Positions 39,138-43,675 of a DNA stretch of 64,000 nucleotides are shown piece after piece. The stretch is from assembly GCF_030296015.1 (NCBI RefSeq), contig NZ_AP027368.1, positions 4,140,839 through 4,204,838 on the forward strand, given 5' to 3'. This DNA is from Ferrimonas sp. YFM. GTDB lineage: Bacteria > Pseudomonadota > Gammaproteobacteria > Enterobacterales > Shewanellaceae. A model generated the notes under the pieces. It had not been told where the DNA came from, did not search any database, and saw only the letters and a program-made list of their open reading frames with translations. A program made the position numbers and the translations under genes. Position 1 is the first letter of the stretch. Every line of letters starts with the position of its first letter.

Positions 39138-39595
39138 CAGAGGGCAAATTCCTGTAAACGTTGATTATCGATAAAGGCTTCCGCTTCCACTGCGGCATGG
39201 GAGGCTTCAATCTGGTTCTGCCAGTTCTCTTCCGACCAGATCTCAAACTTGTTCAGTTGGCCCACCAGCATCAGCTGCTTCTCCAGAGAGGCGAATTGAC
39301 GCAGGGGAGGCGGTATCAGTACCCTTCCCATGCGGTCTATCTCCACGTCGCTGGCATAACCGAGCAGCAACCGTTTTACGGCCCGCTCACTGGGCTGGGT
39401 ATCCGACAGGCGCGCCAGTTTCTGCTCCACTTCGCTCCAGGCTTGGAGGGGGTACAGCAACAGGCAGGGGGAGTGAATGTCTACGGTAACCACCAAGGGA
39501 CCGGCGTCTTCCGCACACAACAACGGCCGGTATCGCTTTGGTATGGCGATCCGGCCTTTGGCATCAAGTGCGATGCTGCTGGCGCCTCTGAACAC
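39137..39595 (-). CDS. mraZ: Transcriptional regulator MraZ
   Basis: 152 aa, two SpoVT/AbrB-like swapped-hairpin domains: [20 protein letters not shown] (about 2-21) and the second DxxGR motif [14 protein letters not shown] about residue 86. MraZ binds phased TGGGN repeats in its own promoter and in E. coli represses the dcw cluster. The start is GTG with a GGATGGAG region upstream. Four boxes lie in front of the gene. Confidence 0.96.
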
Positions 39596-39636
39596 TGGCT
39601 ACTCCATCCCTGTTAAATTTCAGTCGGACAAGGTTT

Positions 39637-39671
39637 TCCCACAAATAACCACTTTTTCCCACAAGCTACCA
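39637..39671 (-). promoter_or_regulatory. MraZ operator: four 10-bp-phased TGGNN boxes
   Basis: On the minus strand TGGTA (39671-39667), TGGGA (39661-39657), TGGTT (39651-39647) and TGGGA (39641-39637), each separated by exactly 5 nt. It covers the start-site region of the mraZ promoter. Known MraZ sites have three or more TGGGN repeats with this spacing; two of these four are exact. Confidence 0.82.
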
Positions 39672-39701
39672 AGTTTATGGACACAAAGCGAGGATTGTCA
39701 A
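39672..39701 (-). promoter_or_regulatory. mraZ/dcw promoter
   Basis: Minus strand consensus -35 TTGACA (39701-39696), 18-nt spacer, -10 TAAACT (39677-39672). Expected start about 39665, inside the MraZ boxes, so MraZ binding would block initiation. Confidence 0.8.
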
Positions 39702-39820
39702 GGAAGCCAGATGAAGGCTAAAGCCTGTATTTTCGGGGCTTTACGCTTAGTTTTTAGAGAGTTATCCGGGAATTAATCGCAGGTGGGAATGATGGATAAA
39801 TCCCACTTGGCAGGAAAGAG

Positions 39821-39848
39821 TCACGGGGCCCGACCAGGGACCCCGTGA
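39821..39848 (-). terminator. Probable terminator of the lipoprotein gene
   Basis: TCACGGGGCCC-GACCA-GGG(A)CCCCGTGA: 11 pairs with one bulged A. On the minus strand it is followed by CTCTTTCC, a poor T tract. It lies about 115 nt past the stop at 39964. Confidence 0.55.
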
Positions 39849-39876
39849 TGTATATCGGCTTTGTGCCGGTCAGTCT

Positions 39877-39958
39877 GATGACCCCTAGCAGGCGAGCCCC
39901 CCCGAACAGCCTTGCGGTCGAGTCCAGTTCACTCATCGGAGCTGGCCTGCGGGTCATC
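39877..39958 (-). other. Large stem-loop in the 3' UTR of the lipoprotein gene
   Basis: GATGACCC (39877-39884) pairs with GGGTCATC (39951-39958), and inside it CAGGC (39889-39893) with GCCTG (39945-39949). It begins 5 nt after the stop codon. A short open frame over this area has no SD and is not credible. The rest of 39702-39820 holds only a small GTGGGA/TCCCAC hairpin (39783-39806). Confidence 0.5.
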
Positions 39959-39963
39959 CCCTG

Positions 39964-41985
<2,022 letters not shown>

Positions 41986-42065
41986 GTCTGATTTCTCCAA
42001 CTGTCGGCAGATAAGAGACGTGCGCAGGCAGGGACTTCAACCCGGGAAGGAAGACCATTGCCAGA

Positions 42066-42142
42066 CATGAGGTAGTCCCGCTGTCTTGCCACTGACGGTA
42101 AGACCGGTGACTTTGCGCCTCCCACCAGGGGAGTTGCCTTTA
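42066..42142 (-). promoter_or_regulatory. Cyclic di-GMP-I (GEMM) riboswitch
   Basis: Minus strand reading from 42142: GATAAAGGCAA, a hairpin CTCCC-CTGGT-GGGAG, then GGCGCAAAGTCACCGG, the P3 stem GTCTT...AAGAC, then ACAGCGGGACTACC. The GCAAAG-nC-ACCGG core and the ACAGC(G)GG...CC closing element are the GEMM-I consensus; the first hairpin lacks the usual GNRA loop. CAGACA (42153-42148) can pair with TGTCTG (42067-42062) outside it. It lies about 70 nt upstream of the SD of the lipoprotein gene. No terminator follows, so translational control is more likely. Confidence 0.82.
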
Positions 42143-42211
42143 TCTGCTGTCTGATTATTGAGTGTTGAACAGGCGCGGCCCCCAGGGGATGCGCCGACAT
42201 AACTGGGGAAC

Positions 42212-42240
42212 AGAATACTGATCGACCACTTTCTGGACAA
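42212..42240 (-). promoter_or_regulatory. Candidate promoter of the riboswitch-lipoprotein transcript
   Basis: Minus strand TTGTCC (42240-42235), 17-nt spacer, TATTCT (42217-42212). Predicted start about 42205, giving a leader of about 220 nt that contains the riboswitch. Confidence 0.5.
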
Positions 42241-42297
42241 ACCACTCAAAATGGCCAAGTTGACTTGAAAAGAGGCCCATTCCTGAGTGATTTATGA

Positions 42298-42335
42298 CCT
42301 TGTTTAACGACACTTTAGTATCGTGTTAACCAAGG
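42298..42335. repeat. Inverted repeat upstream of the lipoprotein promoter
   Basis: CCTTGTTTAAC (42298-42308) and GTTAACCAAGG (42325-42335) are inverted copies with one mismatch, separated by 16 nt. There is no T run. It is a possible operator. The remaining gene-free sequence 42336-42581 shows nothing I can support. Confidence 0.5.
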
Positions 42336-42581
42336 ACTTCATCAAGAAATTGCCGAAGAATCAGGGTAAGTCTCTGGGATGCGGTATCTTTCTTCCACCG
42401 ACTCTGGCGAGAACATGGAAGTCGTCGCTTGCTGGAAAACTTTAGCCCACGAAGTCCATTTTGCGATCCAGATCACACAAATGAGATCGGTTACAATTCG
42501 TCCAACTTGAAGCACGGAGTTATCCCGAAGCTTTGCTCCAGATTACCGAACAAAGTTCAGGGAACTTTCCAGAAAAAGCGC

Positions 42582-42610
42582 AAAAAAAAAACGCGGCCAT
42601 CGCCGCGTTT
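42582..42610 (-). terminator. Terminator after sspB
   Basis: Minus strand AAACGCGGC-GATG-GCCGCGTTT continuing into a run of ten T, 6 nt past the sspB stop. Confidence 0.93.
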
Positions 42611-42615
42611 CTTGT

Positions 42616-43053
42616 CTATTTGATCACCCTTAAGCTGGGGCGTCCCTTTGCCGGGGCCTCCGGCTTGGGTTCTGCCTCTGTGGGCGATGGCTCAGGCAGG
42701 GGAGCGTCATCCCCTTCGAGCACCTGCTCGTACGCCTCTTCCGGCGGGAACAGAGTCCCAGCGCCGTTCTCACGGGCATAGATCGCCTCGATGGCGTACA
42801 GGGGCACAACCAGCGCCTGTGGCTGTCCGCCAAATCGGGCGTTAAACCTGACTTCGTCGATACCCAGCTGCAGATTGCCCACAGCATGGGGCGCCACATT
42901 CAATACGATCTGACCATCATTCACATACTGACGGGGCACGACTACACCGGGAAGATCCGCATTGACCGCCAGGTGGGGGGTCAGACCGTTGTCCACCAGC
43001 CAGTCATACATCGCCCGCAACAGGTAGGGGCGTTGAGGGCTCAGCTCAGACAC
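42616..43053 (-). CDS. sspB: ClpXP adaptor / stringent starvation protein B
   Basis: Binds ssrA-tagged proteins and delivers them to ClpXP. 145 aa from GTG 43053: (M)SELSPQRPYLLRAMYDWL aligns with the E. coli start; an earlier GTG at 43068 is less likely. Folded domain about 1-110, acidic/proline linker, then the ClpX-binding tail RPSLRVIK. It overlaps sspA by 8 nt. Confidence 0.95.
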   Translation of the reverse strand: MSELSPQRPYLLRAMYDWLVDNGLTPHLAVNADLPGVVVPRQYVNDGQIVLNVAPHAVGNLQLGIDEVRFNARFGGQPQALVVPLYAIEAIYARENGAGTLFPPEEAYEQVLEGDDAPLPEPSPTEAEPKPEAPAKGRPSLRVIK

Positions 43054-43675
43054 CGATGCGCAGCTCACGCTCGGCTTCGGTCAGGGAAGCCTTGAAGGAC
43101 TCACGCTCAAACACGCGGGTCATGTAGGCTTTCACCTCGTTGCTGCCGCGACCGCTCACTTCGATACCCAGCTGAGGCAAACGCCAGAACAGGGCCGCCA
43201 GGTAACAGTCGACCAGGGTGAACTCCTCACTCATGAAGTAGGGAGTCTCGGCAAACACGGGCGCCAGACCCAGGATGCTTTCGGTCAGCTCTTTACGGGC
43301 CGCTTCCGCGCGGTCACCACGCATGATGCGCTCGGCCAGGGCATACCAATCTTTCTGGATGCGGTACATCATCAGACGGCTCTGGCCACGGGATACAGGG
43401 TATACCGGCATAAGCGGTGGATGAGGGAAACGCTCGTCCAGGTACTCCATGATGATGCGGGAGTTATACAGTACAAGCTCGCGGTCCAGCAGGGTCGGTA
43501 CGCTGTTGTAGGGGTTCAACTCCACCAGCTCATCCGGCAGATGGTTGGGGTCAACCTGAATCACCTCGACACCCACGCCCTTCTCAGCCAACACGATGCG
43601 CACTTGGTGGCTGTACAGATCACTAGCACCGGAAAACAGTGCCATTACAGAGCGCTTATTGGCAGCAACAGCCAT
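43046..43675 (-). CDS. sspA: Stringent starvation protein A, RNA polymerase-associated
   Basis: Inactive glutathione-transferase fold that binds RNA polymerase with sigma70. 209 aa from MAVAANKRSVM, identical to the E. coli N-terminus; the ATG 12 nt earlier is discounted. Signature YLDERFPHPPLMPVYPVSRG includes the surface P-H-P patch required for activity. Confidence 0.96.
   Translation of the reverse strand: MAVAANKRSVMALFSGASDLYSHQVRIVLAEKGVGVEVIQVDPNHLPDELVELNPYNSVPTLLDRELVLYNSRIIMEYLDERFPHPPLMPVYPVSRGQSRLMMYRIQKDWYALAERIMRGDRAEAARKELTESILGLAPVFAETPYFMSEEFTLVDCYLAALFWRLPQLGIEVSGRGSNEVKAYMTRVFERESFKASLTEAERELRIGV

Follow-up and report, generated by a model that had tools for sequence, protein, structure and literature searches.

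A c-di-GMP class I riboswitch probably governs the translation of a surface lipoprotein in Ferrimonas sp. YFM, most likely as an OFF switch. The element lies on the reverse strand of the window, by which we mean the whole 64,000-nucleotide stretch of DNA analysed, and is a member of a known riboswitch class with a slightly reduced form of the aptamer. The sensor class is well known; the target protein family is uncharacterised. An aptamer, a conserved leader, two alternative helices and a predicted protein fold were computed (Table 1). New here are the expression platform, predicted in 14 of 17 leaders, and the predicted OFF direction of the switch. The Ferrimonas papers returned for riboswitch or cyclic di-GMP appear to concern other matters, and the protein family has no name by which to search.

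Table 1. Coordinates of the riboswitch, its predicted expression platform and the downstream gene in the window.
Feature	Position	Strand	Basis
c-di-GMP-I (GEMM-I) aptamer	42068..42148	(-)	RF01051, 49.9 bits, gathering score 35; E 1.6e-8 in own genome
Extended P1 closing helix, CAGACA (42153-42148) / TGTCTG (42067-42062)	42062..42153	(-)	14-leader pairing test
Aptamer 5' strand GCAGATAA, partner of 42014-42007 in the predicted alternative fold	42140..42147	(-)	complement search, leader alignment
P2 hairpin CTCCC-CTGGT-GGGAG, loop not GNRA	42119..42133	(-)	loop comparison across aptamers
GCAAAG core, A47 equivalent 42114	42111..42116	(-)	sequence and alignment, register by eye
Anti-P1 strand TTATCTGC	42007..42014	(-)	perfect 8-nt complement of 42147-42140; 1/1000 shuffles as good
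Start-codon hairpin, TGCCGA (42009-42004) / TCGGCA (41980-41975)	41975..42009	(-)	alignment, opening-energy tests
Shine-Dalgarno GGAG	41995..41998	(-)	sequence; spacer 9 to UUG
Lipoprotein gene, TTG start; lipobox Cys codon 41895-41893	39964..41985	(-)	ORF list, translation, Shine-Dalgarno spacing, relatives' leaders
Pro/Asp/Glu-rich repeat linker	41656..41868	(-)	sequence
LamG-like beta-sandwich domain	41116..41655	(-)	AlphaFold2 model and Foldseek
Alpha/alpha toroid, distantly like sugar 2-epimerases/glycosidases	39970..41073	(-)	AlphaFold2 (pLDDT 90.2) and Foldseek

A c-di-GMP-I aptamer upstream of the lipoprotein gene

Analysis of the window with cmscan placed RF01051 (c-di-GMP-I, GEMM-I) at 42068-42148 (-), with 49.9 bits and an E-value of 9.2e-7, above the Rfam gathering score of 35 bits and across the entire model (1-87). 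It was the sole match above a gathering score among 4227 families over the whole 64-kb window. The original prediction, a c-di-GMP-I riboswitch at 42066-42142 upstream of the lipoprotein gene, is thus borne out by a significant, full-length covariance-model match to the same element, displaced by a few bases. A search of the whole genome recovered the same site (E 1.6e-8) together with two further GEMM-I elements, at 71.8 and 68.7 bits, and none of 14 control genomes was positive. The GCAAAG core that had been proposed was located at 42116-42111, and the spacing of about 70 nt to the Shine-Dalgarno sequence was measured as 69 nt from the aptamer end. Both letters of the interhelical P2/P3 pair, C 42117 and G 42081, are there (register by eye).

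Leaders of orthologues were consistent with this assignment. The GCAAAG core is letter-perfect in four of the six members of the window's clade, the window included, and reads GCAAAA in the other two (G300a and G303a); P3 pairing is implied by the full-length matches in the clade. The extended P1 helix, tested at five of its six pairs in 14 leaders, was paired in 91.4% of cells, a percentage reached by 22 of 500 shuffles. Its pair at columns 5/104 is C-G in seven rows, A-U in three and unpaired in four.

A second family of the same clan, c-di-GMP-I-GGC (RF03167), was considered and rejected: its 46.4 bits fall short of the 59 required for gathering, and where the window reads GCAAAG the family consensus reads GCGAAG. 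It tops the clan ranking, at the same 46.4 bits, when the search is confined to 501 bases. Vc1 and Vc2 of V. cholerae, both of RF01051, share with the window element the GGC/GCAAAG/AGC core, the ligand-contact letters and the full covariance model, and likewise lie in the 5' leader of a secreted-protein gene. The window element differs in its P2, with a drifting 5-7 nt loop where GNRA is usual, and in its platform, the proposed pair of anti-P1 and start hairpin.

Predicted expression platform

Directly before the start codon, 14 of the 17 leaders carry a TTGTCTGC-type strand, which is a perfect complement of 7-10 nt to the aptamer 5' strand. In these leaders the complement was equalled by 0-22 of 1000 dinucleotide shuffles; in the three leaders that do not carry the element, G306b (7-nt complement), G030b and G304b, 138, 998 and 615 of 1000 shuffles, respectively, were as good. 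The alignment and energy tests cover the 14 leaders, chosen for having the element, with these three left out beforehand. Both sequence and folding energy give evidence of mutually exclusive anti-P1 and ribosome-site-sequestering helices in 14 of the 17 leaders; the element is absent in the other three. We predict a conserved platform in which 42007-42014 would pair alternatively with the aptamer 5' strand or into a hairpin whose loop holds the Shine-Dalgarno sequence and the start codon.

Across the 14-row alignment, pairing covered 99.1% of cells in the anti-P1 helix, where slid controls reached 49.1% at most, and 91.8% in the start hairpin, where they reached 41.8% at most. At one anti-P1 pair, 11 rows have C-G, and U-A stands in the three that make up the window's nearest clade; one pair of the start hairpin is found as U-A, G-C or A-U. 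The covariation scores were reached by four of 500 shuffles for anti-P1 and by one of 500 for the start hairpin, though for the latter a register slid by +3 scored 0.085, above the 0.063 of the real register. Pairs changed on both sides were no more frequent than in shuffles for either helix (reached by 286 and 295 of 500, respectively).

The in-frame Arg codon in the 3' arm of the hairpin is CGG in all 14 leaders, although CGG accounts for 60 of 368 Arg codons when 15 of the 25 family domains are counted. On this ground the RNA, and not the peptide alone, is judged likely to be conserved at the arm, and it is unlikely that the arm is kept for its peptide only. Since two-sided changes do not exceed those in shuffles, support for the platform comes chiefly from the pairing percentages, the C-G to U-A change and the CGG codon.

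Transcription termination was set aside as the mode of control, as a terminator scan of 39500-43200 was empty on the coding strand between the aptamer and the start. In the same span, no promoter of the sigma-70 type was seen ahead of the aptamer. Plasmid origin of the leader was likewise discarded, there being no blastn match in 72,556 plasmid records.

Direction of control

In the proposed mechanism, the anti-P1 strand TTATCTGC would pair in the ligand-free RNA with the aptamer 5' strand GCAGATAA, dismantling the binding core and reducing the start hairpin to a weak remnant at most, and ribosomes could enter. With c-di-GMP bound, P1 would be held and the downstream strand released, and the TGCCGA/TCGGCA hairpin would close, with Shine-Dalgarno sequence and start codon enclosed in its loop. 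The lipoprotein would then be produced mainly at low c-di-GMP.

To model the bound-like fold, P1 was held and the 5' strand blocked, and the result was compared to the free fold using energy models that ignore ligand, tertiary contacts and cotranscriptional folding. The ribosome site was costlier to open in the bound-like fold in all 14 leaders, by 1.1-7.9 kcal/mol (mean 4.1), and by 5.7 kcal/mol in the window leader; for G295b a misplaced start (UUG) was used in this series, and its AUG in the random-block test. For 11 of the 14 leaders, blocking the 5' strand had a greater effect than any of 40 random 9-nt blocks, while random blocks equalled it in 1, 1 and 6 of 40 for G302a, G299b and G303b. 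In a simpler folding model, the probability of the window hairpin rose from 0.46 to 0.98; the rise was at least 0.1 in nine of the 14 leaders, with five staying within 0.03. For G306b, G030b and G304b no switch was predicted, the Shine-Dalgarno sequence being paired in both folds (unpaired probability 0.00-0.01).

These energies, with the layout of the leader, suggest translational OFF control, a direction on which the original prediction was silent. A similar layout is described for the E. coli thiC TPP riboswitch, where a free-state anti-P1 helix excludes P1 and the stem that sequesters the ribosome-binding site, and ligand turns expression OFF (PMC5234074); there the aptamer and ligand are others, and in the window the Shine-Dalgarno sequence sits in the hairpin loop. 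The direction and the translational level of control are inferred, as is the ligand.

The same aptamer and ligand could instead form an ON switch, if the wide-loop start hairpin were active or the bound fold shielded the mRNA from decay. The Shine-Dalgarno sequence does lie in the loop, its unpaired probability is almost constant between folds (0.51 and 0.51 in the window), and Vc1, a GEMM-I element ahead of a secreted sugar-binding protein, is reported as an ON switch (PMC4744006). However, every leader tested needs more energy to open its entire ribosome site in the bound-like fold, and the effect of the 5' strand is largely specific when set against random blocks. An ON switch is therefore rather unlikely, and the OFF reading is preferred. 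The 2016 paper that reports Vc1 as ON calls its mechanism unclear and that of Vc2 unknown (PMC4744006); the predicted platform would offer a compact and testable one for the class.

Ligand

An A at position 20 is the mark of GEMM-Ib, the 3',3'-cGAMP form, and the cGAMP synthase DncV falls in the SMODS family. The window has G at the equivalent position, 42138, and A47 (42114) and C92 (42072) are likewise intact (register by eye). Because these letters, which contact the ligand (PMC4744006, also for the meaning of the interhelical pair), are kept, c-di-GMP is the expected ligand. The genome of Ferrimonas sp. YFM gave 45 GGDEF matches, 44 above cut-off, and no match to a SMODS domain. The GGDEF count covers matches of any active-site type, Hypr or other, and two domains, judging by position, are split into pairs of matches. 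The choice of ligand, left open in the original prediction, most likely falls to c-di-GMP, and 3',3'-cGAMP is unlikely.

A GEMM-Ib-like aptamer that senses 3',3'-cGAMP, or is promiscuous, would have precedents. The G20A form binds cGAMP (PMC6274999), GEMM-I aptamers of Geobacter bind it too (PMC8835794), position 20 is described as a selectivity factor and not a hard filter (PMC9262584), and selectivity could loosen if tetraloop docking were lost. With G20 and A47 retained, and GGDEF matches abundant where SMODS is missing, we regard this as improbable, and take c-di-GMP as the predicted ligand.

P2 loop and tetraloop docking

The window P2 loop reads CTGGT (42128-42124) in place of GNRA, as had been noted, and the departure extends to its two closest relatives: the window, G299a and G302a have CTGGT, TTAGT and CATACTC, respectively. 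A GNRA loop closed by a pair occurs in 12 of the 17 family aptamers, and in G304b and G044 a GAAA stands in register by eye, though scored otherwise by script. Outside the family, GNRA was found in 16 of 17 Ferrimonas GEMM-I elements examined, taken from 23 non-family matches; the exception, G305b, has AAAA. By eye, no CUAA/AUGA-type receptor could be seen on the P3 side of the window, G299a or G302a. G295a and G030a, whose loops are still GCGA and GTGA, lack this receptor as well, so that little can be read from its absence by itself.

A GNRA loop docked in a P3 receptor, a usual though not universal feature of RF01051, is thus lacking in the window. As the GNRA loop is missing and the loop letters drift freely, docking has probably been lost in this three-species clade, rather than replaced by a new contact; the earlier suggestion that tertiary docking may differ can be sharpened to this extent. 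The Cd1 mutant A24-26U, taken to be a tetraloop mutant, is reported not to bind (PMC9262584), and by analogy the affinity of the window aptamer for its ligand may be lower.

That the aptamer has decayed, loss of the tetraloop having made it insensitive in this clade and its leader a relic, is very improbable: the three aptamers have the lowest scores of the genus's 16 family aptamers (49.9, 49.7 and 47.6 bits), their loop letters drift and the Cd1 mutant does not bind (PMC9262584), but outside the loop no letter differs between the 81-nt aptamer of the window genome and that of G299, and one anti-P1 pair and one outer P1 pair of the clade are altered on both sides relative to relatives and still paired, which would hardly be expected of a relic.

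The leader of a paralogous gene in the same genome (G000:C1:1818702) has a GAAA loop. With two paralogous switches that differ in aptamer architecture, a single genome would make it possible to see directly whether the response level depends on tetraloop docking.

The lipoprotein

The open reading frame is listed as 39964-42000, the first possible start codon being at 42000. Translation most likely begins at TTG 41985-41983, nine bases downstream of GGAG, a choice made on the Shine-Dalgarno spacing and the leaders of relatives; the gene at 39964-41985 agrees in this with the original prediction, as does its description as a lipoprotein, the signal peptide ending in a lipobox, LSAC. A C-terminal part of 563 residues follows a long Pro/Asp/Glu linker of DPDPEP repeats, whose make-up varies between the species compared.

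An AlphaFold2 model from 25 aligned relatives reached a pLDDT of 90.2 and a pTM of 0.90. Foldseek gave 26 matches at E <= 0.001, with identities of 8-16% among the 50 matches listed and TM-scores normalised by query length of at most 0.41 among the matches listed. The LamG-like sandwich resembles agrin (1pz8, target TM 0.53). The toroid distantly resembles sugar 2-epimerases (3vw5, E 5.8e-5, target TM 0.48; 3wkf, target TM 0.53) and GH105 (4ce7, target TM 0.43). With these proteins and 8h1l, the window protein shares the alpha/alpha toroid at target TM 0.43-0.53, with 11-13% identity and an rmsd of 6.0-10.5 over long gapped alignments; it differs from them in the LamG-like domain ahead of the toroid and in having no Pfam match in its domains. 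A conserved ED..H.H.. motif lies in A1.

Pfam gave no match on the window's domains; with the full protein as query, the matches from Pfam and NCBIfam were of low complexity only, over the signal peptide and linker. GH88 was touched by two of the 25 family members (best E 0.0098). A PDB match, 8zvk (E 1e-17), that spans the linker and the first part of the LamG-like domain was set aside, as a profile of linker-free domains missed it.

The combination of a LamG-like domain with an alpha/alpha toroid suggests a protein that binds extracellular polysaccharide or acts on it as an enzyme, and on the fold match the toroid may have enzymatic activity. The riboswitch would thus put a surface protein without a Pfam match in its domains under c-di-GMP. 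The neighbouring genes, which we take to be a cell-division cluster (mraZ, mraW, ftsI) on one side and cytochrome bc1 genes on the other, make the context uninformative.

Distribution of the family and its switch

Protein searches found the lipoprotein family in nine of 14 Ferrimonas genomes, that of the window included, and among named relatives in F. futtsuensis (97%), F. sediminicola (88%), F. kyonanensis (70%) and F. sediminum (69%). In sets drawn evenly from larger groups, it occurs in four of 295 genomes of the order (our own, one other Ferrimonas, G044 and, as a weak 24% match, G273) and in one of 369 of the class, our own, at E 1e-10. Only G044 itself carries it among the seven genomes of its own family.

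GEMM-I lies directly upstream of 17 of 25 full-length domain copies; no match was found upstream of the other eight, with 150 candidates scored per genome, a depth at which weak elements might escape. All six members of the window's clade (window, G299a, G302a, G300a, G303a and G295a) carry it, as do 11 copies outside the clade, and its presence and absence on the protein tree require at least three changes. In the genome of Ferrimonas sp. YFM, two of three paralogues have the switch. The third, at L025:4266-7445 (+) (C1:494265-497444), encodes 1059 aa with three LamG-like units; cmscan found no GEMM-I upstream of it, and its neighbours are presumably transketolase-like and phosphoketolase-like genes.

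Copies of the family in G030 and G044 (L027 and L026) have up to five LamG-like units and adjoin what we assume to be glycosyltransferase- and acyltransferase-like genes. This suggests exopolysaccharide loci, and such neighbours fit a role in exopolysaccharide. We tentatively propose, as a rather unlikely extension, a genus-wide circuit in which c-di-GMP, through the shared anti-P1/start-hairpin platform, would shut off a family of LamG-toroid surface enzymes that cut or edit the cell's own exopolysaccharide. Falling c-di-GMP would then release matrix, and the switch of the window's clade, lacking tetraloop docking, would respond at a c-di-GMP level different from that of its sister switch in the same cell.

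Other GEMM-I elements in Ferrimonas

The 68.7-bit GEMM-I element of the same genome, L029:1088-1167 (+), stands before a different lipoprotein (MQFKRHLIALSLTAALTQLTACGGG), and elements before proteins like it were seen in four other Ferrimonas genomes (L091, L093, L098 and L099). At L087 and L088, the downstream gene, which we take to be GbpA-like from its HGWVDFP start, would repeat the pairing of Vc1 with gbpA in Vibrio; a TGCCTTT downstream is a 7-nt complement of the aptamer. Four elements (L074, L076, L082 and L097) precede an ATPase gene, presumably ParA/BcsQ-like from its GGEKGGSGKS; downstream of each lies a stretch of 7-8 nt complementary to the aptamer core. Genome G301 holds a divergent set, in which three of six matches were viewed (L086, L095 and L100). 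In these, GACGGAAAG replaces GACGCAAAG, as if a G-C pair at the base of P2 had been swapped, and the downstream genes are secreted-protein-like.
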